A stretch of 64,000 bases of DNA from Actinoplanes lutulentus (GTDB lineage Bacteria > Actinomycetota > Actinomycetes > Mycobacteriales > Micromonosporaceae), in NCBI RefSeq assembly GCF_003259845.1, contig NZ_QLMJ01000001.1:124001-188000 (forward strand), written 5' to 3'. Position numbers and translations under genes: made by a program. Below, piece by piece: positions 5,895-46,334 of the stretch; position 1 is the first letter of the stretch, and the number at the start of each line of letters is the position of its first letter. The notes under the pieces were generated by a model. The model was not told the DNA's origin and made no database searches. It saw only the letters and a program-made list of their open reading frames with translations.

Positions 5895-6182
5895 GTCGCC
5901 CTCTCCGTTCGCGTCAGGTGAAGCGAGGTTCATTCGTACGAGAGCCGCTGGGCCACCCATGCTCGTCCTCGTGCCGCGACGCGAGACCACCCCTGACGGA
6001 TGAACGAACCAAACCTGGCCCCGCCTAGCTGAGCTGCTCGAACGCCGTCTCCAAGCGGTGGCCGCGGCGAGAAATCGCCGTCGCTGGCTGGCGATTCCAG
6101 ACCTGGCAGCCGACCACAACTGATGCTCGGCACCAGCATCGTGGACCTGTCACACGCGCCCGCTGAGGCCCGATGCGGCTGG
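5895..6182. other. Intergenic region, 288 bp
   Basis: Lies between the start of the LOR gene and the end of the decayed MFS gene. It should hold the LOR promoter. The ribosome-binding sequence GGAGAGGG lies 8 bases upstream of that start. I see no convincing gene, hairpin terminator or repeat in the rest. Confidence 0.4.
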
Positions 6183-6872
6183 TCAGCGCAGGTCATCGAA
6201 GGCTGTCTCGGGTGCGGTGAGTGCGGCGATCGTGCCCGCCACCGCCGCCGCGACGAGGTAGATCGGTACGGCATTGGCGGCTCCCGCGTTCGCCATGAGA
6301 ACGGCGATCAACGGCGCCATGCCACCGAAGACGGCCGTGGCGACGCCGTAGGTAACGGCGACTCCGGTGGCCCGAACCGCGGTGGGGAAGAGTTCGGCGA
6401 CGAACACGGTCACCACCAGCAGGCCAAGCACCCCACCGAAGACGACGTTGAACACCAGCAAGCCGCCGGGCGAGCTAGCGGCGAGTGTGAACCCAGGGAT
6501 GGCGAAGATGCCGACCGCCATCGTGCCGACGATCAGAAGACGGCGCCGTCCAGCGCGGTCGCTGAGCCGGCCCAGGAGAGGCGCGGTCACCGCGATGGTC
6601 AGGAGGCCGAGGACGGCCCCGCTCAGGGCACGGGCCAGTGGAATCGAGCCGGTCGTGGACAAGTGGCTGGGAAGATAGACGAAGCAGAGATTGAACGCGA
6701 TCGACAGAAGAGCCACCAGCGCGACACCCCGGGCACCAGCGCCCCGCGCCCGCGCAGAACGTCGCCGCGCAGGCGGGGGCGAACCGGCTCTTTCATCGCC
6801 TCGAATCGCTGGCTCTCCGCCAGCCGGCGCCGGATGTGCCGAGCGACCAGCCCCAGCGGCGCGGCACTGAGG
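6183..6872 (-). pseudogene. MFS (metabolite:proton symporter type) transporter remnant
   Basis: C-terminal half of a major facilitator of the MHS (ProP/KgtP-like) type. The clean part (6183-6716, 177 aa) holds about five helices and the loop GRLSDRAGRRR, then ELFPTAVRATG, typical of helix 10-11 in this family. Further 5', homology continues in another frame with the reading APLGLVARHIRRRLAES and FEAMKEPVR, which matches the segment after helix 6. There is therefore a frameshift near 6720-6740. All of helices 1-6 are missing beyond about 6870, where unrelated lower-GC sequence begins. The gene cannot make a working transporter. Its loss is best explained by the insertion or recombination that brought in the adjacent island. 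Confidence 0.75.
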
Positions 6873-6905
6873 GAGCGATGGCGCTACGCAGATCTGCTAG
6901 AAATG
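6865..6905. other. Recombination junction between two truncated genes
   Basis: On the left, reading leftward, is an MFS gene that lost its N-terminal half. On the right, reading rightward, is a STAND/TPR gene that lost its N-terminal half. Family homology on the right starts at the residues YADLLEMM, in the middle of a Walker-B-like segment. Base composition falls sharply within about 30 bases. No inverted repeat, target duplication or transposase is visible at the joint. Confidence 0.55.
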
Positions 6906-9032
6906 ATGGTTTCAATCCACTCGGAAATGCAGGGCAGGATCACCCGCGTCCTGATGCTAACCCGCTCAGAGATGCATTTTTGGGATCAATTGGAGGCCGA
7001 TCTAGACGGTTTGGGAATGGACTACATGTCGCCGATCTCGCTAACAGGCTTCTCGAATGAATCACGAGAAGCGTCCTTCATTGAGGCCGCCTCGGCCTTT
7101 TCGGTTGCGCTCGGGTTTCCTGCAGATGAGCGGCCTTTGCCAGCGAATATCGCGGACCAGATGTACTCGTCGCCGCTGACACTTCACATGGCTGCCCTTG
7201 CAGCAGTCTTATCATCCAGCGAGAACGCGGAGCAGCCGATCGATATTTCTCGTTACCTTTTACTTCATGAGCAGCGTCGCTGGAATAGTTTATCTGACGT
7301 CGGAACAGTCAGGACGCTCGTTATGTTGGCAACACTCTTTGGCCCCATGCATACCCGTGAAACTGCTCGCGAATTGATCCTTGCCGCCGGCATCGCCGAC
7401 GGAACGGCGGAAGCTGATCGGCTACTGCGAGATCATCATTATCTATATCCTAGCGAGCAGCACCTTTCACCGTTGCGTCCCGATCGGTTCGCTGAGGACT
7501 TCATCGGCTGGCATCTCAGTCGATCCCGCGTTGTGCTAGATGATCTGGCCAAGCTTTTGATTGCAGCGCCTCCTGCACCCAGCACGGACTCTTTGCGCCA
7601 GGCAATGATCGTTCTAGCAAACGCCGCCCGACACCCATCTGTACGCGATCTTTTGGAGAGAGTTGTCAGGGTCCGACCCGAACTAGCTGAGCAGTCTTCG
7701 GAGGTTCTTCTAGCCGTAACCAATCATTTGTCGTTTCCAACAGCGGCGATCATTGCCTTCCGGGGAAATATTTTAGTAGAGTCCACTCATGCTCGGCATC
7801 AGCTAATACAGCGCGTTGTTAGAGAATTTCCCAGCACTGCGGATGCATCGGTTAACCGCTCTAAGCTGCGACTACTCGGCGATAGCTTCACTGATTGCGG
7901 AGAGTATCACGAGGCGGCAGAAATTTATGGTGGACTAGTCCAACGACTGCGCGAGGACGCAGATGCGGGCAGCCTTGAGGAGCTAGTCGAACTCGCCGAC
8001 TTACTTAACCGCTATGCTCAAGCGGTCGCAGCCAGAGGATCCGAGGCGGATGCACTAGAAATCATGAATGAGGCTGTGGATTTGCTTCAAGTCCAGAGCG
8101 AATCCGATATGGGCGACTTGATTCTGGACTATAAAGAGATATTGGCGCGGAGTCTATCTAATCGTTGCAATGCGCTCGCCGGAGCCGGAAACCTTCATGC
8201 GGCACTCGCCGACGCCGAGGAAGCGGCTATCCTTTTTCAGGAGTTGGCGGATGATGATCCGGAAGTATTTGTAAATGTTCTGCTTCGTAGTCGGGCCCGT
8301 ATTGCTCAAACGCTGCATGAGTTGGGCCGTTTTGAGGAGGCCGACAAGATCGACCAAGGCGTAGTTGATGCGCTACGTCCACTTTATGTGGATGATCCTA
8401 AAAACCACCGCTCAGATTTAGCCTACATCCTCTACAACCACGGGGTCAGCGTGGCTCGACTGGGAGACAGCGAACGGGCGGTGGTCATCTTAGCGGAGTC
8501 AGCAGAGCTTTATCGGCATCTTGCCAAGCACATTCCTCTTCGATTCCTCGATGAACTAGGAAGGTGCCTATTCACTCTCTCCAACGCACTAGATGAAAGT
8601 AACCGTGCAAGAGATATGGTGAAAGTTCTGCGGGAGCAATTGACGGTGCAGAGAAAACTCAATCAACTGGCGGCACGTCCCGACAATAGGCTTCTCGCCA
8701 TCACCCTATCGGAACTCGGTCAGCAGCTGGCGATGCTGGGCGAGAATGAGCAGGCGCGACCGGCGCTCATCGAGGCGGCTACGGTTGCCAAGGAATTGAT
8801 TTCATCGAATGATAGTGCGGCCGCCCTGATAGCGTCTCAATCACTTATTTCACTTAGTATCGTCTTTCGCGATCTCGGGTGCGGGAATGAGGCAATTGGG
8901 GCCGCCAGGGAGGCTGTCGAAGTTTCTCGCGACTGCGGGGATGGCTCAGACTTCGATAGTGATCGACACGAATTTTGCCTGTCGCTCTTAGCGGAGATGT
9001 TGGAAATTTTTAAGCACGCTGCTCAGAGCTGA
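6903..9032 (+). CDS. 5'-truncated STAND NTPase/TPR protein (C-terminal portion only)
   Basis: 709 aa from the first plausible ATG. The N-terminal residues resemble the part of actinobacterial STAND-type proteins just after the Walker B strand (ITRVLMLTRSEMHFWDQLEA). A winged-helix-like region follows (LLLHEQRRWNSL), then about 450 residues of helical TPR-like repeats, for example YHEAAEIYGGLV, LHAALADAEEAAILF and RAVVILAESAELYRHL. No P-loop precedes this, because the sequence upstream is antisense to the MFS remnant, so the ATPase half and any effector domain are lost. GC is much lower than in the neighbours, and TTA codons are common (for example in RYLLLH). Intact relatives are signal-sensing or defence ATPases. 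The remnant may be untranslated; no good ribosome-binding site is seen. Confidence 0.6.
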   Translation: MMVSIHSEMQGRITRVLMLTRSEMHFWDQLEADLDGLGMDYMSPISLTGFSNESREASFIEAASAFSVALGFPADERPLPANIADQMYSSPLTLHMAALAAVLSSSENAEQPIDISRYLLLHEQRRWNSLSDVGTVRTLVMLATLFGPMHTRETARELILAAGIADGTAEADRLLRDHHYLYPSEQHLSPLRPDRFAEDFIGWHLSRSRVVLDDLAKLLIAAPPAPSTDSLRQAMIVLANAARHPSVRDLLERVVRVRPELAEQSSEVLLAVTNHLSFPTAAIIAFRGNILVESTHARHQLIQRVVREFPSTADASVNRSKLRLLGDSFTDCGEYHEAAEIYGGLVQRLREDADAGSLEELVELADLLNRYAQAVAARGSEADALEIMNEAVDLLQVQSESDMGDLILDYKEILARSLSNRCNALAGAGNLHAALADAEEAAILFQELADDDPEVFVNVLLRSRARIAQTLHELGRFEEADKIDQGVVDALRPLYVDDPKNHRSDLAYILYNHGVSVARLGDSERAVVILAESAELYRHLAKHIPLRFLDELGRCLFTLSNALDESNRARDMVKVLREQLTVQRKLNQLAARPDNRLLAITLSELGQQLAMLGENEQARPALIEAATVAKELISSNDSAAALIASQSLISLSIVFRDLGCGNEAIGAAREAVEVSRDCGDGSDFDSDRHEFCLSLLAEMLEIFKHAAQS

Positions 9033-9046
9033 GTCTTGATTGCAGT

Positions 9047-9580
9047 CTATGCACCCAGTGCGGAAATACGTTTTATCATCTCATCGAGATATCCGAGGGT
9101 ATCGTTGATGCCCGGCTCGTAGTCCGCAGGATGTGCGCACTCGTTGCGCTTAGCTAGGAGGCCATGTAAAGCCTTCATCGTAGCGTTCGTGATCAACCCT
9201 TGCCTTTTCAGTACCTCAAACAGTGTGTGGTCCTTTTGTTCACGTAGGTCTGCGGCTTGGTTCACGTTCCACGTCGGATAACTTTTCTGGATTAATCCAA
9301 GGCGGGTCGCATCGGTCACGATCCACTCGTGAATATAATCCATAAATGCGGCGAACGCCGTAACGTGCGCCGACCGGTAAAGTCCATGCTCCGCGCATTG
9401 TAGGGCTTCGCGAAGCAATTTATCTTGCTTAAGATTGAGCTGCGTCAGTTTCTTGTACGACTCCGTGACGGTCATGACCCGATGCGTCGACGTCTCGTGT
9501 CTTGCAAGAAGCTTACTCAGTTCGGCTTGCGTTTCAGCCGCCCAATCCGCGACTTCTCGCGGAGTCCTAGGAGCCGCCAT
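9047..9580 (-). CDS. HEPN-like protein, possible RNase toxin
   Basis: A 177-aa, mostly helical protein. Near its C-terminus is LAKRNECAHPADY, which fits the RNxxxH active-site motif of HEPN ribonucleases (Arg, Asn, then His three residues on). The preceding text (LLREALQCAEHGLYRSAHVTAFAAF) matches the usual first HEPN helices, with an EAxxxxxxGxxxxA-type pattern. The start overlaps the 3' end of the DUF5343 gene by 14 bases, so the two are surely cotranscribed and probably translationally coupled. Known HEPN proteins act as tRNA or mRNA cleaving toxins in toxin-antitoxin and phage-defence systems; catalysis here is inferred from the motif only. Its 3' end faces the truncated STAND gene, 14 bases away. 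Confidence 0.75.
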   Translation of the reverse strand: MAAPRTPREVADWAAETQAELSKLLARHETSTHRVMTVTESYKKLTQLNLKQDKLLREALQCAEHGLYRSAHVTAFAAFMDYIHEWIVTDATRLGLIQKSYPTWNVNQAADLREQKDHTLFEVLKRQGLITNATMKALHGLLAKRNECAHPADYEPGINDTLGYLDEMIKRISALGA

Positions 9581-10226
9581 TCATCAGGTCCTTAAGGTGC
9601 TTCGCCATTGCTGCAAAGAACGCGTCGTAGACTGCGGCGTCGCTTGTTGCATCTACGGAAAGAGCGATGTTTACGTTGATAACAACCGCCCCGCTGGAGT
9701 TACTATTTTCGGACTGGCGCCGCTGGTGTTTCTCTCCGCTGGCTGAGTCTTCCGGATCCCTGGAGCTACTTTCACTGTCATTGCTCACTGTAGGCTGGGC
9801 GCCGCTGAAGTCGCCGAATTTGCACAACGTTTTAAACGTTCGAACTACTAGTGCCGCCTTCTCTTCGTCCAGATCCGAATGACTCTTGACAAATGTCACT
9901 AAATCGGAGTCGGAGTGGCTGTTGGCGTCTGAGTAAGTGTCGAATATGGGCTTGTAGGACAGCATAAGCGCCTTGGCGACCAGTGCTCGGCCGGCAGGGC
10001 CAGCGCGAAGTCCCTTCTTATAGGCCTCGGTTGGTTGGCCGGATGAATCGAGCAGGCCCGCGTATTTCAGAACAGCAGGAAAGCTTCGCGCGTGTGACGA
10101 CCCGAAGCCGATCGACTTCGGGTAGCCGGTAGTGATCTTGTCGGGGGTTCCGACCGACTGGAGCTTTGTAATGAACTCCTCAAGTTTACCCGGCGAGTGG
10201 TTATAGATGAATCGAATCGAGGCCAT
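9567..10226 (-). CDS. DUF5343 domain protein, upstream partner of the HEPN gene
   Basis: A 219-aa protein. Residues about 10-150 resemble the DUF5343 family: IGFGSSHARSFPAVLKYAGLL, then PTEAYKKGLRAG, ALVAKALMLSYKPIF and VVRTFKTLCKFGDF. The middle (about 150-182) is a polar, Ser/Glu-rich linker. The tail INVNIALSVDATSDAAVYDAFFAAMAKHL, read in parts, matches the family's common C-terminal beta-strand-plus-helix module. No catalytic motif is known. The gene comes first in the operon with the HEPN gene, the usual place for an antitoxin or a sensor. An inverted repeat 40-60 bases upstream of the start may be an operator. Lower GC suggests horizontal transfer. Confidence 0.72.
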   Translation of the reverse strand: MASIRFIYNHSPGKLEEFITKLQSVGTPDKITTGYPKSIGFGSSHARSFPAVLKYAGLLDSSGQPTEAYKKGLRAGPAGRALVAKALMLSYKPIFDTYSDANSHSDSDLVTFVKSHSDLDEEKAALVVRTFKTLCKFGDFSGAQPTVSNDSESSSRDPEDSASGEKHQRRQSENSNSSGAVVINVNIALSVDATSDAAVYDAFFAAMAKHLKDLMNGGS

Positions 10227-10697
10227 GGGCGCATGGTACGCGCGAAAGCCAGAAATCTACAATGGACAACCGAATGGACACGGTTGTTCCATGTTTGACG
10301 CCTCTTGGGAATATTGGCCGTTCAGGGGTGACTTCGGAAGCGCGCCTTGGCCTGCTGCGGAACAAGCTCTCGGAACCCTGTCCGCTGGCGAAAACGATCA
10401 TCCTCAGGTCTGTGCTGTTTGCTCGGCGTTGACCAGAAGGTCGCTTTTGAGCGTTCGAATGGAACTGTGGCTAGGAGTTCCGTTGGCGTTTTCTCCAGGT
10501 GGAAGAACTGGGCGCTGGATTAGTTGGTTGCGATCAACTGCGTTACTCCAGCGTTTCGACGTACGCATCTTTGCCGAGGACAACCCTCGCCCGCGTGCCG
10601 CGGCCGGCCCGAAAAGTGCGATTACGGACATAGGGGTTTATTCGTGTGCCTAACTGCTGGATAGTGAAATCATTAGCCTGTTTGAGAACGGCTTCAC
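10227..10697. other. Intergenic region, about 470 bp
   Basis: Lies between two divergent genes. The left part should hold the promoter of the DUF5343-HEPN operon, including the inverted repeat described separately. A 148-codon open frame on the plus strand crosses it but has no family resemblance, no ribosome-binding site and no codon bias, so I do not call it. Nothing else is recognised. Confidence 0.4.
10266..10287. promoter_or_regulatory. Inverted repeat, possible operator of the DUF5343-HEPN operon
   Basis: ACAACCG and CGGTTGT form exact 7-bp arms separated by 8 bases, about 40-60 bases upstream of the DUF5343 start. On the minus strand a -10-like TAGATT lies just downstream of it, so a bound protein would overlap the core promoter. 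Autoregulation is inferred from position only. Confidence 0.35.
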
Positions 10698-10721
10698 GTG
10701 ATCGCCTACCGTGTTCTCCTG

Positions 10722-11594
10722 ATGAAACCGAAGTATCCCGTCCTCCTGATCATCGCCGTGATCGCTGGTGCTGCAGGCGTTATCCTGGGCATCATCGCCA
10801 TCTCCCTTGCGTACCAGCCCTCCGGGCCGGCCGAGTCGCCTAGCGTCACTGACTGGATGCAGGGGATCGGCAATATCGCTGGTGTCGTGGTCGGCATCGG
10901 TGCCGCCCTCGCCGCTGGCGCGGTGTACTGGCAAGGCCAGCAAGCACTCGCAGCCGCCGAAGAGCAACGGCTCGCCGACAATCACGCAGCTGCCGAGGCA
11001 GCACGTGTTGCAAAGGAGCGCTGGGAAGCCGACCGCGAGGCTGCCGAGAAGTCGTTCGCGGCGACCCAACGACACATGCAAGCGCAAATAGAGAACGCAC
11101 GGGATGCGGCAACCACCGCCGAGGCTCAGTTAAGCGAGGACCGGCGGCGCTGGCAGAGCGAGCAGCAGGAGACTCGTCTTGAGTACGCCCGATCGGTCAT
11201 CGTTACGAGGGTCGGTCCCGGGATGACGGGAAGGGGCCAGCTCGGGGAGATGCTCGTCGTTCTCCACAACTTCGGCGCTCAACCTATTCGGCGGGTCGTC
11301 GTCACCGTTGGCCTGCTACAGGAAAACGTACAGCTCGAACTGAAGGTTCCGGCCGTAGGACCTGGTCAGCAGTATGACTTCCGGGAGAACTATCGAGATT
11401 CCCCAATCTCGGTCAGCATGGGAGAACTCCCGGCGTGGGACGTAGACGTTGATTCTGACATCTACTCAGTCAGTGTCACTTTCATCGACGCGGCTGGTCG
11501 CAGATGGGAACGACAAAACAACGAGGAGCCTGAATGGCTCAATCGCCCGCATACTGGATCCAAGTACGCGAGACCGTGGTCCGGGCAGCGTTGA
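10722..11594 (+). CDS. Two-helix membrane protein with coiled coil, unknown function
   Basis: About 290 aa. There are two transmembrane helices near the N-terminus (VLLIIAVIAGAAGVILGIIA, and IAGVVVGIGAALAAGAVYW). A charged Ala/Glu/Arg coiled coil follows at about 75-150 (QQALAAAEEQRLADNHAAAE onwards). A C-terminal beta-rich domain ends in VTFIDAAGRRWERQ. The C-terminus is expected in the cytoplasm. A GTG 24 bases upstream is an alternative start with a GAGAACGG-like site; neither start has a strong ribosome-binding sequence. I recognise the general layout from uncharacterised actinobacterial proteins but no named family. GC is intermediate between the island and the core. Whether it belongs to the accessory island is open. 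Confidence 0.65.
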   Translation: MKPKYPVLLIIAVIAGAAGVILGIIAISLAYQPSGPAESPSVTDWMQGIGNIAGVVVGIGAALAAGAVYWQGQQALAAAEEQRLADNHAAAEAARVAKERWEADREAAEKSFAATQRHMQAQIENARDAATTAEAQLSEDRRRWQSEQQETRLEYARSVIVTRVGPGMTGRGQLGEMLVVLHNFGAQPIRRVVVTVGLLQENVQLELKVPAVGPGQQYDFRENYRDSPISVSMGELPAWDVDVDSDIYSVSVTFIDAAGRRWERQNNEEPEWLNRPHTGSKYARPWSGQR

Positions 11595-11925
11595 ATATTA
11601 TGAAGGCTTCTCCGTTAACTTTGGCTTAGGGAGGGTGCAGAATGAGCGGACGTAGACGACAGCCGGGAAGAGGGCTGCTGAGGCTGCGTTGCCCGAGCTT
11701 TGATCTAACGGGCCTGCGTCTCTGCCCAAGCTCATACGGACCTATAGAAGTGACAGCTCTTTAACGGCGATCGTCGTGTGCCTGTCCTGAGTGTTGACCC
11801 TCGGACACCAACAATATGACTACGAATCGCCGGGGCTGAGCCTCGGCGATCTCTGTATCCGGGCTCAGTCGCTCCGCCTTGCGTCGTTGTCGCTCGGGAC
11901 GCTCGGCAGCGGAGCGTGACCGCTG
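11595..11925. other. Intergenic region between convergent genes, 331 bp
   Basis: The first 230 bases show no gene or clear signal. The last 100 bases hold two hairpins: the strong one at 11826-11850 and a weaker one with arms GCTCCGC and GCGGAGC (11871-11877 and 11909-11915). Both could stop transcription from either side. Confidence 0.45.
11826..11850. terminator. Palindromic hairpin between convergent genes
   Basis: ATCGCCG pairs with CGGCGAT, and the inner GGCT pairs with AGCC, leaving one unpaired base in each arm and a one-base loop as written. It sits between the membrane coiled-coil gene and the response regulator, which end facing each other, so a two-way terminator is likely. There is no T-run. 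Confidence 0.5.
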
Positions 11926-12564
11926 TCAGAGCAGGCCCAGCTCGCGAGCGCGCAACGCCGCCTGGGTTCGGTCGCGGGCGCCGAGTTTGGACAGGGCGCT
12001 TGTCACGTGGTTCTTCACGGTCCCCTCGGCCAGGAACAGCGCTGCGGCGATCTCCCGGTTGCTGCGCCCACCTGCCAGCAACCGTACGACGTCGAGTTCG
12101 CGCCCGGAGAGCGGTGCGATGAGTGGGTCGGGGGCCGGTGTCGGCAGTTGCGCCACCCGGAGTACCAGTTTGGCGGCCACTCCCGGTTCGAGGACTGATT
12201 CGCCGCGGACGGCGGCGCGGACGGCTTCCATCAGGCGTTCCGAGGAGGCGTCCTTGAGCAGGTAGCCGATCGCTCCGGCCCGGATCGCGGAGAACACGTC
12301 GGCGTCGTCGTCGAACGTGGTCAGGGCGATCACCTGGACCCGCGGGTGGTTCGTGCGAATGTGCCGGGTCGCTGTCGGGCCGTCCATCACCGGCATCCGC
12401 AGGTCCATCAGCACCACGTCCGGTGATGCCCGTCCGGCCAACTCGACGGCCTGCGCGCCGTCGGCCGCCTCGCCGACCACCTGGATGTCGTCCTGGACCG
12501 ACAGCAGCATCGCGAGAGCCTCGCGGAACAGCCGCTGGTCGTCGGCGAGCAGCACCCGGATCAT
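11926..12564 (-). CDS. NarL/LuxR-type response regulator
   Basis: A 212-aa two-component response regulator. The receiver domain (about 1-120) shows MIRVLLADDQ with the acidic pair, DVVLMDLRMP with the phosphoacceptor Asp near residue 53, then Thr and Lys positions in ALTTF and LLKDAS. The C-terminal LuxR-type helix-turn-helix (about 145-210) reads LSGRELDVVRLLAGGRSNRE, then GTVKNHVTSALSKLGARDR. It binds DNA in the cytoplasm when phosphorylated. The start overlaps the stop of the histidine kinase gene by an ATGA junction, so the two are coupled. Targets are unknown; the divergent DJ-1 membrane gene beyond the kinase is a candidate. Confidence 0.93.
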   Translation of the reverse strand: MIRVLLADDQRLFREALAMLLSVQDDIQVVGEAADGAQAVELAGRASPDVVLMDLRMPVMDGPTATRHIRTNHPRVQVIALTTFDDDADVFSAIRAGAIGYLLKDASSERLMEAVRAAVRGESVLEPGVAAKLVLRVAQLPTPAPDPLIAPLSGRELDVVRLLAGGRSNREIAAALFLAEGTVKNHVTSALSKLGARDRTQAALRARELGLL

Positions 12565-42027: not shown

Positions 42028-43200
42028 CTACCCGTTGCGCAGGCGTTCGATCTCGGCGCGGGCGTGCTCGACGGCTTCGGTGTCGCGGCCGACGGAGCGG
42101 GCGAGTTCCTGGGCCAGATCGTTGGCGGCTTCCAGGACATGTTTCGCGGTCTTACGTTCGCGGTGCCCGTGGATCGCCTTGCGGTACGCGCGGCGCTTGC
42201 GGTATCCGGCGGCTGCGGCGTCGACCTCGGCCTCGGTGAGCAGGCCGCGTTCGGCCTCGGGGGCGAGGATGGCGCGAAGCCACGCCTGCTCCTGGGGTGC
42301 GGCCAGCCGGAATGTGATGGTCAGCAGGACCAGCCCGGCGACGAACAGGATGACCATCACAAGGAAGAATCCGGCGGTGCCGGCCAGACGTTCCCCATAG
42401 GCGGCGGTGTTGTCCCAGCCGTTGTGCAGGGCCATCGCGCCGAGGATCAGCAGCAGTCCGCGCACCCGATGCTTGCCCTCGCCGCGGCCGATCAGCCACA
42501 TCAGGCCCGCGCAGAAGATCGCACTGAACAGCACGTGCTGGACCAGCCCGGCCCCGGCCCGGCTGGCGACGATCTGCAGGGCCGCGCCGACCTGGCCGGC
42601 GCCGAAGCCGTTGCTCGCGGCGTTGAACACGTACAGCAGGTCTTCGGAGACCTGCAGGCCGAGGCCGGCGAACGCGCCGATCATCAAGCCGTCGTACGGG
42701 CTGCGGACCAGCTTCGGGGCCAGGCCGATCAGCAGAATCAGCGCGGTGGCCTTGGCGAGTTCTTCGGTGATCGGTGCGGTGAAGCCGGGCGCCCAGTCCC
42801 GGGTCCAGGCGTGGCCGAACAGTTTGCCGTAGATCGACAGCACCGCGGTGTTGACCTGCAGGGCGATCCAGTAGGTCGCCGGGATCGCACCCCAGAGGAA
42901 CGCGACGAGCAGCAGCTTGGGCGGCAGCGACGTGTACCGGTTGTGGTAGCTGAGCAGCAACAGCCACGCGATCGTGTACGGCAGGAACGCGAGGGCGCCG
43001 ACGCCGAGCCCGACGGCGTACGAGCTCAGGCCCGGCTCGTAGAAGGCGAGCAGGTGCACGACACCGAGGAGCATGCCGACGACGAACACCCAGAAACCGG
43101 CGTTGCGCAGCTGGATCAGCCGGAACGGCTGCCCCCAGCCGGATGCTTCGATGGCCGCCGACCGGGCCTGTTCGGCGCCGGTGCGTTCGATGGTGGTCAC
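42028..43200 (-). CDS. PrsW family intramembrane metalloprotease, copy 1
   Basis: A 390-aa polytopic membrane protein with about eight helices. PrsW-type active-site motifs are visible: ITEELAKATAL (EExxK-type), GLGLQVSEDLLY (second Glu), LVQHVLFSAIF (His) and ALHNGWDN (His-Asn). The C-terminal 100 residues are charged and helical (about 300-390), probably cytoplasmic. In Bacillus, PrsW cleaves an anti-sigma factor. The GTG start overlaps the stop of a one-pass membrane protein gene, which may encode its substrate or partner. A paralogue lies 2.5 kb upstream in the same chain. Confidence 0.87.
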   Translation of the reverse strand: MTTIERTGAEQARSAAIEASGWGQPFRLIQLRNAGFWVFVVGMLLGVVHLLAFYEPGLSSYAVGLGVGALAFLPYTIAWLLLLSYHNRYTSLPPKLLLVAFLWGAIPATYWIALQVNTAVLSIYGKLFGHAWTRDWAPGFTAPITEELAKATALILLIGLAPKLVRSPYDGLMIGAFAGLGLQVSEDLLYVFNAASNGFGAGQVGAALQIVASRAGAGLVQHVLFSAIFCAGLMWLIGRGEGKHRVRGLLLILGAMALHNGWDNTAAYGERLAGTAGFFLVMVILFVAGLVLLTITFRLAAPQEQAWLRAILAPEAERGLLTEAEVDAAAAGYRKRRAYRKAIHGHRERKTAKHVLEAANDLAQELARSVGRDTEAVEHARAEIERLRNG

Positions 43201-43820
43201 GGCTGCTCCTGTCGGCTGACGCTGTGCAGTACCGCGTCGATCTGCTTCTGGTGGGCGGCGAGCTGCCCGGCGGGTGCCGTGACGGTGATCGTCATGCCCG
43301 TGCCGGTCTGCGGGAACGTGTAGGCGGCCACGAGACCCGCGGTCCCGACGCCCGTGTAGTTCTCGGCGAGCCCGGCGATGCCGCCCTGGGCCGCAACCGT
43401 GGCGCGCCGGCCGCTGACCGTGTTGTCGACCGTCTCGACCTGGTCGAGCAGAGCCGTGGTGTCACCGGTGAACGAGGCCACGTGGATGCTGATCGACACA
43501 CCGTCACCGGAGAATGACGCGTCGGCCGTACCCGGCGTGACCGGCACCGTCGTCGTCTCGCCGACCCGGATGCCGCTCTCCAGCTCCCAGCCGGTCGGCG
43601 GCGTGACCGCGATCCCGCCACCCAGATCGAGGCGCTGCCCGGCCTGGATCGCGTCGTCCTGCGGCAGCGCGTCGTCGATCAGCGGCACCACGAATGTCAG
43701 CAGGATCGCGATTACCGCCACCACGATGGCCGGTGTCAGGGTGCGTTTGTCCAGCCCCAGCCATCGTTGTTCGACAGGCACCCAGCCTTCGGCGTGCCGT
43801 CCGCCATATGTATGGACCAT
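43197..43820 (-). CDS. One-pass membrane protein, putative PrsW partner, copy 1
   Basis: 207 aa. A short cytoplasmic N-terminus (about 25 residues), one transmembrane helix (LTPAIVVAVIAILLTFVVPLI) and an extracytoplasmic beta-rich domain of about 150 residues (GGGIAVTPPTGWELESG through to the C-terminus). It ends in a GTGA overlap with the PrsW gene. It resembles the protein encoded at 45726 in layout, in length and in the phrase pattern after the helix (LDLGGGIAVTPPTGW against LAVGAVLTVVPEDGY). A substrate or regulator of the protease is my inference from coupling and topology. Confidence 0.75.
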   Translation of the reverse strand: MVHTYGGRHAEGWVPVEQRWLGLDKRTLTPAIVVAVIAILLTFVVPLIDDALPQDDAIQAGQRLDLGGGIAVTPPTGWELESGIRVGETTTVPVTPGTADASFSGDGVSISIHVASFTGDTTALLDQVETVDNTVSGRRATVAAQGGIAGLAENYTGVGTAGLVAAYTFPQTGTGMTITVTAPAGQLAAHQKQIDAVLHSVSRQEQP

Positions 43821-43840
43821 GAGTAGAACCCTTTCAGCTC

Positions 43841-44563
43841 TCAGGCGAGGACGAAGGTGTAGCCGGCGGCTTTGAGCTTCCGGATGGTGTTCTCCAGGGA
43901 GGCGACGGTCTGGCGCCGGTCGCCACCGCCGTCGTGCATGAGCACGACGCCGCCAGGCCGGGCGCCGCGGACCGCGCGGCGGGTGATGACGGCGGCGCCG
44001 GGGCGCTGCCAGTCCCGGGTGTCGACGGTCCAGCCGAGGATCCGCAGCCCTTCGTCACGGACCACCGCGCGGGTGGTCCGGTTGCTGGCGCCGTACGGGA
44101 AACGGAACGTGCGCGGGGCGCGGCCGGTCACCTCGCGAATCTTGCGCTGGGTGAACCGGACCTGCGACCGCGCCTGTGACCTGGTGAGCGTGGTGAAGTC
44201 GGGGTGGTTGCGGCTGTGGTTGCAGAGCCGGTGGCCTTCGCGGACGACCCGTTTGGCGGTCTTGCGGTACTGGCCGACGTTGTTGCCGAGCATGCAGAAG
44301 GTCGCCTTGACCTTCTGCCGCTTCAGGATGTCGAGAATCTGCGGCGTGTACTTCGACGGCCCGTCGTCGAAGGTGAGCGCGATCGTGCGCTTCTTCGCCG
44401 ATGCCACGGTTTCGTAACCGGCGACCGCCGGCTGGAAGGAGACGGCTGCGGCCACCGGCACCGGGGGAACCGGGACCTCGTCGTTGTTGCGGGCCGCGAC
44501 CACGATCACCGTGCCGAGGACCAGGACTGCGGCAAATGTCGCGCGGTTGCGCATGTGGTTCAC
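43841..44563 (-). CDS. Polysaccharide deacetylase (NodB domain), membrane-anchored or secreted
   Basis: A 240-aa NodB-type deacetylase. The N-terminal helix (TFAAVLVLGTVIVVAA) is a signal or anchor. Motif 1 is TFDDGPS (catalytic base Asp and metal Asp), motif 2 HSRNHP (metal His pair), motif 3 RFPYGASN, motif 4 DTRDW and motif 5 LMHDGGG. It removes acetyl groups from N-acetylated wall sugars such as peptidoglycan or chitin-like chains. The GTG start overlaps the stop of the upstream PrsW gene. An internal ATG nine bases on is an alternative. Confidence 0.92.
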   Translation of the reverse strand: MNHMRNRATFAAVLVLGTVIVVAARNNDEVPVPPVPVAAAVSFQPAVAGYETVASAKKRTIALTFDDGPSKYTPQILDILKRQKVKATFCMLGNNVGQYRKTAKRVVREGHRLCNHSRNHPDFTTLTRSQARSQVRFTQRKIREVTGRAPRTFRFPYGASNRTTRAVVRDEGLRILGWTVDTRDWQRPGAAVITRRAVRGARPGGVVLMHDGGGDRRQTVASLENTIRKLKAAGYTFVLA

Positions 44564-45729
44564 CTGTCTACGATTTCCGAGACGCCGGACTGGGCCGCGA
44601 AGTCGGCGCGGGCGAGCTGGACCTCGACGGCGGCCTGGCCGGCGCGTCCACCGGCGCCGTGCTCGCCGTACTGCAGCACCAGGTGCAACTGCCGGCGCTG
44701 CAGCGTCCGGTACAGGCGGGCGGCCTTTTTCCCGTACCCCTGCTTGGCTTCCTTGTGCAGATGCCGGCGGTAGCGCAGCGACCGCAACGCCCGTCGCTCG
44801 TCGACGGTGATCAGTTCCTCGTTGACGTAGGTGTCGGCGAGGCCGGTGAGGTAGTCGGCCTCCTCACGGCCGGCCAGCCGCCAGATCAGGAACCCGGCCA
44901 GCAGGATCGGGACGCCGTGGGTGAGCGCGTCGATGAAGATGTTGCCGGTGCGCAGCAGCGGGCTGTTCCAGAAGAAGTGGCCGAGCCAGGCCAGTGCGTA
45001 GGCGCCGGCGGCGACCAGCAGGCGCTGGGCGAGCGGCTTGTGTTTGCGAGTGAGGAACCAGCCGAGGCCGAACGCCGAGATCGACGTGAACAGGGCGTGG
45101 CTCCACAGCCCGGAGACGATGCCGCGGAACAGCAGCATCAGGCCGACCGGCAGGACCTCGTTGGGGCTGCCCATGCTGATCGCGGTGTTGACCGTGTAGT
45201 CGAGATCCTCGACCACCTGGAAACCGAGCCCGACCACGGCCCCGATCGCGACCACCGACAGGATGGTGCGGAACTGGGTGCGGGCGATCAGAACGAGCAG
45301 GATCACGCCGAGGTATTTGAGCAGTTCCTCGGTGGTCGGACCGGCGATCGCGGCGGTCCACTCGTTGTCCGGTCCGGAGGTCTTGCTGATGATCGACATG
45401 ATCGCGGTGTTGGCCGGGATCGCCAGGTAGACGGCGCCGAGGCCGCCCCAGGCGAAGGCCAGCACGAACCCGAGCGGCGGATGCTGCTGGAACAGGTCCA
45501 GCCAGTGGAAGAACAGCAACGGTACGGCCGTATAGGCGGCCCACACGATCACGCCGAGGAACGTGGCGATCGGGACGACCTGAGCACCCTGGTAGAACAG
45601 CGAGATCACGGAGAACGCGCCGTTCGCGAGCAGGAAGATCAGCATCCAGAACGCGAACCGGCGCGGCTGCCAGAAGCCGTCGACACCGATCGGGCCCCGG
45701 ATGACCGGGGCGACTCCAACAGCGGTCAT
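44560..45729 (-). CDS. PrsW family intramembrane metalloprotease, copy 2
   Basis: A 389-aa membrane protein with about eight helices. The active-site motifs are GPTTEELLKYLGV, GLGFQVVEDLDYT, LWSHALFTSI and AWLGHFFWNS. A charged helical C-terminus follows (about 300-389, RRALRSLRYRRHLHKEA). The layout matches the other PrsW copy of the chain. It overlaps both neighbours by four bases: the one-pass membrane protein upstream and the deacetylase downstream. It presumably cleaves a membrane protein within the bilayer; the target is unknown. Confidence 0.87.
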   Translation of the reverse strand: MTAVGVAPVIRGPIGVDGFWQPRRFAFWMLIFLLANGAFSVISLFYQGAQVVPIATFLGVIVWAAYTAVPLLFFHWLDLFQQHPPLGFVLAFAWGGLGAVYLAIPANTAIMSIISKTSGPDNEWTAAIAGPTTEELLKYLGVILLVLIARTQFRTILSVVAIGAVVGLGFQVVEDLDYTVNTAISMGSPNEVLPVGLMLLFRGIVSGLWSHALFTSISAFGLGWFLTRKHKPLAQRLLVAAGAYALAWLGHFFWNSPLLRTGNIFIDALTHGVPILLAGFLIWRLAGREEADYLTGLADTYVNEELITVDERRALRSLRYRRHLHKEAKQGYGKKAARLYRTLQRRQLHLVLQYGEHGAGGRAGQAAVEVQLARADFAAQSGVSEIVDR

Positions 45730-46334
45730 CGCTGGGCCTCCACTCGTACGCTGTCGACCATGGCCTGCGCGTGCGGCAGCGCCTGGCGGAAGACCTCGCT
45801 GGGCGAGGCCGCGCTGATCACGATGGATCGCTTGGCGGTCTCGTCCACCGAGATCCACGCCCGGGCCTGTTTGCCGTTGTCGAGCAGCAGCGAGAAGCTG
45901 GTCCCGCTGAGTCCCGGTGCGGTGAAGGTGGCGTCGTCGCCGAGCGGCCGGGCGTCGGCGTAAGCGGTGAACTCGTCCTTTTCCCGCTCGACGAGCTGGG
46001 CGAGGGTGCCGTTCCAGCTGTTCACCGAGATGAGGAAGTTACCGGTGGGCCCGACCAGCTGGGTGCTGGGCTTGTCCGGGTCGGGGCTGGAGTCGCTGAC
46101 GTCCAGGGCGTACCCGTCCTCCGGGACGACGGTCAGCACGGCTCCGACCGCGAGCGGTTTGCCCGCCGCGACGGGTTCGAGATCGGTCGGCGTGTGGTCG
46201 TCGATGACGATCACGATGCCGAGATAGACCAGGATCACCGCCAGAACGGCGAGCGCGCCGGGCCAGGTGCGGTACGGCTCACGGCGTGGAAGTTCGGGTG
46301 GTGCGATGGCATGTTCATGACGTCCGGAAGACAC
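45726..46334 (-). CDS. One-pass membrane protein, putative PrsW partner, copy 2
   Basis: 202 aa. A Pro/Arg-rich cytoplasmic start of about 25 residues, one helix (ALAVLAVILVYLGIVIVI) and an extracytoplasmic domain of about 155 residues with alternating strands. It is the first gene of the five-gene chain and overlaps the PrsW start by ATGA. The same topology as the copy at 43197 suggests ancient duplication of a partner/PrsW pair. No named family is recognised. Confidence 0.75.
   Translation of the reverse strand: MSSGRHEHAIAPPELPRREPYRTWPGALAVLAVILVYLGIVIVIDDHTPTDLEPVAAGKPLAVGAVLTVVPEDGYALDVSDSSPDPDKPSTQLVGPTGNFLISVNSWNGTLAQLVEREKDEFTAYADARPLGDDATFTAPGLSGTSFSLLLDNGKQARAWISVDETAKRSIVISAASPSEVFRQALPHAQAMVDSVRVEAQR

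Follow-up and report, generated by a model that had tools for sequence, protein, structure and literature searches.

What unites a polysaccharide deacetylase, two PrsW-type intramembrane proteases and two membrane proteins with a single transmembrane helix, all encoded in a row in Actinoplanes lutulentus? The five genes lie in a 64,000-nucleotide stretch of contig NZ_QLMJ01000001.1 (positions 124,001 to 188,000 of the forward strand; hereafter the window) and run on its minus strand, from 46334 down to 42028, in the order one-pass protein 1, PrsW1, NodB-type deacetylase, one-pass protein 2, PrsW2 (Table 1). An earlier interpretation made from the letters alone (the sequence-only reading) had described a single chain with three 4-base overlaps, and we recovered these at 45726-45729, 44560-44563 and 43197-43200, together with a 20-bp gap between NodB and one-pass protein 2. 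The conserved unit is a two-gene cassette, a one-pass protein followed by PrsW, which occurs twice here with the deacetylase gene in between. At the level of sequence comparison, strict linkage of the two genes, their co-inheritance and intact protease motifs were demonstrated. We propose, with a probability of about 0.45, that the one-pass protein (the partner) is a dedicated, stoichiometric subunit of PrsW acting as a nicastrin-like sensor or gatekeeper.

The sequence-only reading had itself named lack of linkage in other genomes as grounds for its refutation, and the linkage was found to be conserved. The host genome contains six PrsW genes, four of which, the two window genes included, have a one-pass homologue directly upstream; no such homologue was found within 18 kb of the remaining two. 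In 15 genomes of the same genus, all 21 one-pass matches were directly followed by a PrsW gene on the same strand, and one genome (G005) had neither the partner nor a PrsW of the paired type. A second PrsW type (G000:C6:128726-129334 and its matches in 14 same-genus genomes) occurs once per genome in 15/15 with the top Pfam scores, and no one-pass partner was found for it in any of these 15. Reading of 33 loci from the same searches placed PrsW downstream in every case and revealed an exact 4-base overlap in 30, the exceptions being a 1-base overlap (L059), a 3-base gap (L019) and a partner frame cut by a TGA (L014). We also assembled the best 80 of 172 confirmed loci, picked from named genomes by PrsW similarity alone; a homologous partner was detected by iterated profile directly upstream of PrsW in 79 of these 80, a set that had been seeded with five paired PrsW proteins. 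At the one remaining locus (L139), a one-pass frame with a similar layout lies upstream but did not score with the profile. A start giving a 4-base overlap was available in 75/79 loci, under a counting rule that picks such a start wherever one exists. The 80 loci come from Actinoplanes and related genera, Glycomyces, Demequina, Actinomadura, Embleya and three Chloroflexi metagenome-assembled genomes. Pairing, as judged from these gene arrangements, spans Actinomycetota and Chloroflexota and extends far beyond the window.

Broader samples gave a similar picture. Partner matches were present in at least 25 of 394 genomes sampled across the class and in at least 26 of 396 sampled across the phylum, own genome and weak matches included in both counts. 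Among 28 class-sample loci read outside the own genome (L076 and L098 being one region), PrsW lay beside the partner in 25. Seven non-own phylum matches had expectation (E) values below 1e-12; PrsW accompanied six, and the stretch containing the seventh (L196) ends soon after the partner. For L200, also from the phylum sample, our own scan showed PrsW and did not display the partner frame. Strong partner matches were thus either paired or at a contig end, and weak ones were mostly unpaired. The region shared by L076 and L098 (genome G371) carries two partner-PrsW cassettes back to back on opposite strands. Broken frames were seen in a few cassettes: besides the TGA in the L014 partner, the PrsW signal is spread over two frames in L072 and in L082 (L082/L195), reflecting either decay or sequencing error. 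A partner-PrsW fusion in L082 was ruled out, as the PrsW signal switches frame.

Partner and protease trees were compared for 94 pairs, drawn from 79 refined loci and extras, with L116 and L167 omitted and L139 lacking a scoring partner. Distances in the two trees correlated at 0.79, against a maximum of 0.09 in 1000 permutations, a test that ignores shared species history. The nearest neighbour was identical in both trees for 62/94 pairs, a count raised by at least two near-identical pairs among the 94 (L038/L131 and L080/L173). Eleven sets defined on the PrsW tree, some of them nested, were all monophyletic in the partner tree; since this comparison takes in paralogues of one genome, it is the better sign that partners have not been exchanged.

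The two window cassettes fall in separate deep clades, with the nearest relatives of each elsewhere, which rules out their recent tandem duplication. A profile built from 52 of the 58 family rows, leaving out both window partners and their nearest relatives, retrieved exactly these two proteins among 558 window frames (E 5e-29 and 9e-24), and we conclude from this profile that the two are homologous. The description of the locus as two copies of one pair therefore stands as homology and fails as near-identity: PrsW1 and PrsW2 share 26% identity and the one-pass proteins 20%. By their tree positions, the window cassettes are old, divergent paralogues. A double cassette was found at only one other locus, L136 of Actinoplanes sp. 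M2I2, where a clade-C cassette precedes a cassette of the wider B clade and NodB is absent.

What kind of protein is the partner? In 79 members, 9-45 residues (median 19) precede the helix, with starts set by a rule permitting 8-45, and 146-169 follow it. The tail side is the more positive in 66/79 members, so that an orientation with the N terminus inside is likely. On its tail side the helix is bordered by an RxxG motif, often continued by L-D/E (residues 19-24 of partner 2), which ranks with the best-conserved sites that the family has beyond its outer domain. Pfam provided no convincing family for 58 one-pass proteins (best E 0.005) and no acceptable match for the window ones, and none of the 58 matched the PsbP or LpqN families at E up to 1. 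A search of PDB sequences returned nothing below E 0.5. Pfam has no entry for the family, so that its members are most likely annotated as hypothetical proteins.

We modelled partner 2 from 58 alignment rows, with a mean predicted local distance difference test (pLDDT) score given in Table 1; the alignments used (A4, 58 rows; A5, 45 rows) represent part of the sequences at hand. In the model, a single long helix leads through a stretch of lower confidence into an alpha/beta domain. Foldseek ranked CyanoP first (E 5e-6), placed PsbP, Mog1, Apa, SciW and EagT6 below 1e-3 and gave LpqN 2e-3; a second aligner scored Apa at Z 13.1, PsbP at about 11 up to 12.3 and LpqN at 11.6. The outer domain is thus predicted to adopt the Mog1/PsbP/LpqN fold, directly for partner 2 and by homology for partner 1. 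The presence among these matches of SciW and EagT6, Eag chaperones that bind effector transmembrane segments, raises the idea of a chaperone-like adaptor whose outer domain passes hydrophobic segments of misinserted proteins to PrsW as a quality-control protease. We regard this as improbable: a shared fold proves no function, and PsbP, Apa, LpqN and Mog1, with equal or better scores, adopt this fold too.

A close rival to the subunit proposal is that the partner is a dedicated substrate, resembling RsiW of Bacillus subtilis minus its anti-sigma domain. PrsW would then cut close to the outer face of the membrane, possibly within the linker that follows the helix, and so shed the Mog1/PsbP-type domain or begin regulated degradation. 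The sequence-only reading had given the one-pass proteins the topology expected of a PrsW substrate or sensor. Their likely N-inside layout is the same as that of RsiW, and Pfam recognised no cytosolic domain in the tails of the 58 members. Residues 51-60 of the partner 2 model have a mean confidence of 65, suggesting a flexible linker, and strict pairing also suits an enzyme with its sole substrate. Against this, the tail carries no recognised domain able to signal, the conserved RxxG motif faces the cytosol, and the neighbours scanned included no other conserved gene for signalling. We consider a substrate role possible, if somewhat doubtful.

The subunit proposal draws equally on the protease. 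Both window proteins scored far above the PF13367 gathering cut-off of 23.5 bits, and five catalytic Glu/His positions were invariant in 81/81 PrsW proteins (the two window ones and 79 others). PrsW1 has HxxxN where PrsW2 has HxxxD, and PrsW2 deviates by a Leu in place of the Phe of FxxxE. The catalytic motifs are those quoted for B. subtilis PrsW (PMC12943098), and on these motifs, which are demonstrably intact, the window proteins are predicted intramembrane proteases. Neither belongs with the B. subtilis type proper as judged by the NCBIfam equivalog NF033739, for which PrsW1 scored 24.1 bits against a cut-off of 225 and PrsW2 was not among the matches listed. Release of a toxin by PrsW, of the type in PMC3482391, was set aside, because according to Pfam neither PrsW1 nor PrsW2 has a toxin domain fused to it.

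The PrsW2 model (Table 1 for pLDDT and predicted template modelling score, pTM) contains a helical bundle and a helical C-terminal domain. The second aligner matched it to 7tm3 chain 6 at Z 14.9, to APH-1 at 13.7 and 13.5, to the next unrelated row at 7.2 and to Rce1 at 5.0; by the aligner's own caution, helical bundles often reach Z values up to about 13, and the APH-1 values lie just above that level. Chain 6 belongs to the multipass translocon, and from its length of 224 residues we take it to be TMEM147. PrsW, CAAX proteases and APH-1 are already known to be related (PMC6588880 and PMC4602095), which makes the APH-1 match credible despite a Z near the warning level. The C-terminal part of PrsW2 (42028-42280) forms a confident helical domain after the bundle, and an Arg at its start is found in 79/81 relatives.

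APH-1-fold proteins elsewhere have one-pass partners with ectodomains, and the nicalin helix packs on transmembrane segment 1 of TMEM147 (PMC7505659). On this basis a sensor or gatekeeper role on PrsW is proposed for the partner. Its helix would pack on the PrsW bundle, an arrangement likened to nicastrin on APH-1 and nicalin on TMEM147, and the Mog1/PsbP-type outer domain would sense an envelope signal or control how membrane-protein substrates reach the active site within the membrane. Gene overlap would couple translation and yield equal amounts of partner and PrsW, and the true substrate would be encoded elsewhere. In its full form, a bacterial two-subunit protease of Actinomycetota and Chloroflexota resembling the APH-1/nicastrin half of gamma-secretase, with PrsW as an APH-1-fold subunit that is still catalytically active and an obligate one-pass gatekeeper, the proposal is tentative. 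Fixed gene order, overlap, the absence of strong orphan partners except at contig ends, matching trees and the lack of a cytosolic effector fit a subunit somewhat better than an RsiW-like substrate.

Several points weigh against the subunit proposal. The complex of partner and PrsW is one that we infer, and nicastrin has the opposite membrane orientation to the partner. RsiW, the known PrsW substrate, is itself a one-pass protein, so that a substrate role covers much of the same data. Foldseek returned nothing significant for the PrsW2 model, to be set beside the nearness of the APH-1 scores to the warning level. The seeding of the 80-locus set must also be counted here, as must the 39 of 60 PrsW matches in the 24 genomes searched that have no partner, which make pairing a property of one PrsW subfamily. 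The three class-sample exceptions were L084, at a contig end, and L094 and L095 (E 3e-4 and 4e-4), which lack PrsW. Lastly, 20 weaker phylum loci (E 3.5e-7 to 9e-4) showed no PrsW within the stretch read; many of these matches cover the helix only, and six (L201, L202, L204, L205, L206 and L212) extend over a large part of the domain, and these may be remote, unpaired relatives of the partner.

Where does this leave the deacetylase? Its Pfam score (Table 1) far exceeds the PF01522 gathering cut-off of 23.1 bits, it falls below the equivalog cut-offs of the NCBIfam families listed, and by eye we recognised in it what we take to be the usual NodB motifs. Its place in a single chain with overlaps, and this strong family match, are what speak for the five genes as a wall-modifying or wall-sensing system centred on it. 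This is very improbable, since the double cassette of L136 lacks NodB and NodB-like genes occurred in only 6/90 loci with long flanks, each kilobases from the cassette, and inside or adjoining it in 0/90. Moreover, the host genome has 10 NodB family matches, and the search of 23 relatives gave no match above 46% identity among those listed. On the same grounds NodB was ruled out as a member of the conserved unit, and the wall-modifying system of the sequence-only reading was not borne out. From these comparisons, NodB is probably a local insertion or passenger outside the conserved unit.

Table 1. Genes of the five-gene locus (window positions).
Feature	Position	Strand	Remarks
One-pass partner 1, 202 aa	45726..46334	-	GTG start; short N-terminal tail, one helix, outer domain; homologue of partner 2 (leave-out profile); clade C
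PrsW1 intramembrane protease	44560..45729	-	ATG at 45729, 4-base overlap with partner 1; PF13367 111.5 bits; EExxK, FxxxE, H, HxxxN
NodB-type polysaccharide deacetylase, 240 aa	43841..44563	-	4-base overlap with PrsW1; PF01522 139.9 bits
One-pass partner 2, 207 aa	43197..43820	-	ATG start; tail about 25 aa, helix 25-51, outer domain about 60-205; model pLDDT 84.6; predicted Mog1/PsbP-like fold
PrsW2 intramembrane protease	42028..43200	-	4-base overlap with partner 2; helical C-terminal domain; PF13367 104.9 bits; model pLDDT 91.4, pTM 0.89

The open reading frame that begins at 45858 is merely mechanical, PrsW1 starting at the ATG of Table 1. The statement that the locus has no sigma or anti-sigma gene was confirmed by Pfam for its two direct neighbours, a cold-shock protein and a GntR/FCD regulator. 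To survey other loci, 30 neighbour proteins of 15 loci, a partial choice, were run against Pfam; within this choice there was no conserved third gene and no sigma factor, and 8/30 proteins had no Pfam family. Neighbours comprised a Glu/Leu/Phe/Val dehydrogenase and a methyltransferase in Actinoplanes, serA-, leuB- and aminotransferase-type genes in Glycomyces, a Cys/Met pyridoxal-phosphate enzyme in Demequina, and a thioesterase, Tpt1, a hydrolase and an amidohydrolase at single loci. A LuxR-type response regulator at L155 touches the Sigma70_ECF family through its helix-turn-helix (23.4 bits, cut-off 21.1); it adjoins the cassette together with a histidine-kinase-like gene, in this one case. 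Elsewhere in the window, positions 6001-12000 have a G+C content of 0.53-0.61 against about 0.70 in the surroundings, contain a 969-aa frame and two others, and may be a foreign island.

How does the cassette compare with known systems? The PrsW family is known. No description of the pair, or of the obligate one-pass partner and its fold, was found in the open-access literature searched, in so far as its texts were available, subscription papers lying mostly outside that search. A 2026 paper calls B. subtilis PrsW the only functionally characterised PrsW domain (PMC12943098), and an inseparable partner offers a direct handle on how PrsW is controlled or on what it cuts. The B. subtilis PrsW/RsiW system shares a PrsW-family protease with the same motifs (the same text) and a one-pass RsiW with an outer part (PMC5358783). 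RsiW, however, bears a zinc anti-sigma domain in the cytosol and is accompanied by a sigma factor, whereas the window partner has a short tail and no adjoining sigma gene, and Pfam detected no RsiW-type zinc anti-sigma domain in the 58 members; in addition, the window partner gene overlaps the protease gene, and the protease misses the NF033739 cut-off. PrsW-fused polymorphic toxins and PilZ- or FHA-fused PrsW proteins likewise link PrsW to a second function (PMC3482391), but there toxin or cytosolic signalling domains are fused, in contrast to the separate one-pass partner. PsbP/CyanoP, LpqN, Apa and the Eag chaperones resemble the partner in the predicted fold of its outer domain; the partner differs from them in being membrane-anchored, tied to PrsW and without a Pfam or PDB sequence match. 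APH-1/nicastrin and TMEM147/nicalin each combine an APH-1-fold multipass protein with a one-pass partner bearing a large outer domain (PMC7505659). Unlike these, PrsW retains its catalytic residues and the partner, likely N-inside, carries a predicted Mog1/PsbP-type domain, in an association that we infer. If the partner is indeed a subunit, the cassette would provide a bacterial, catalytically active model of one-pass ectodomain proteins riding on APH-1-fold proteins.

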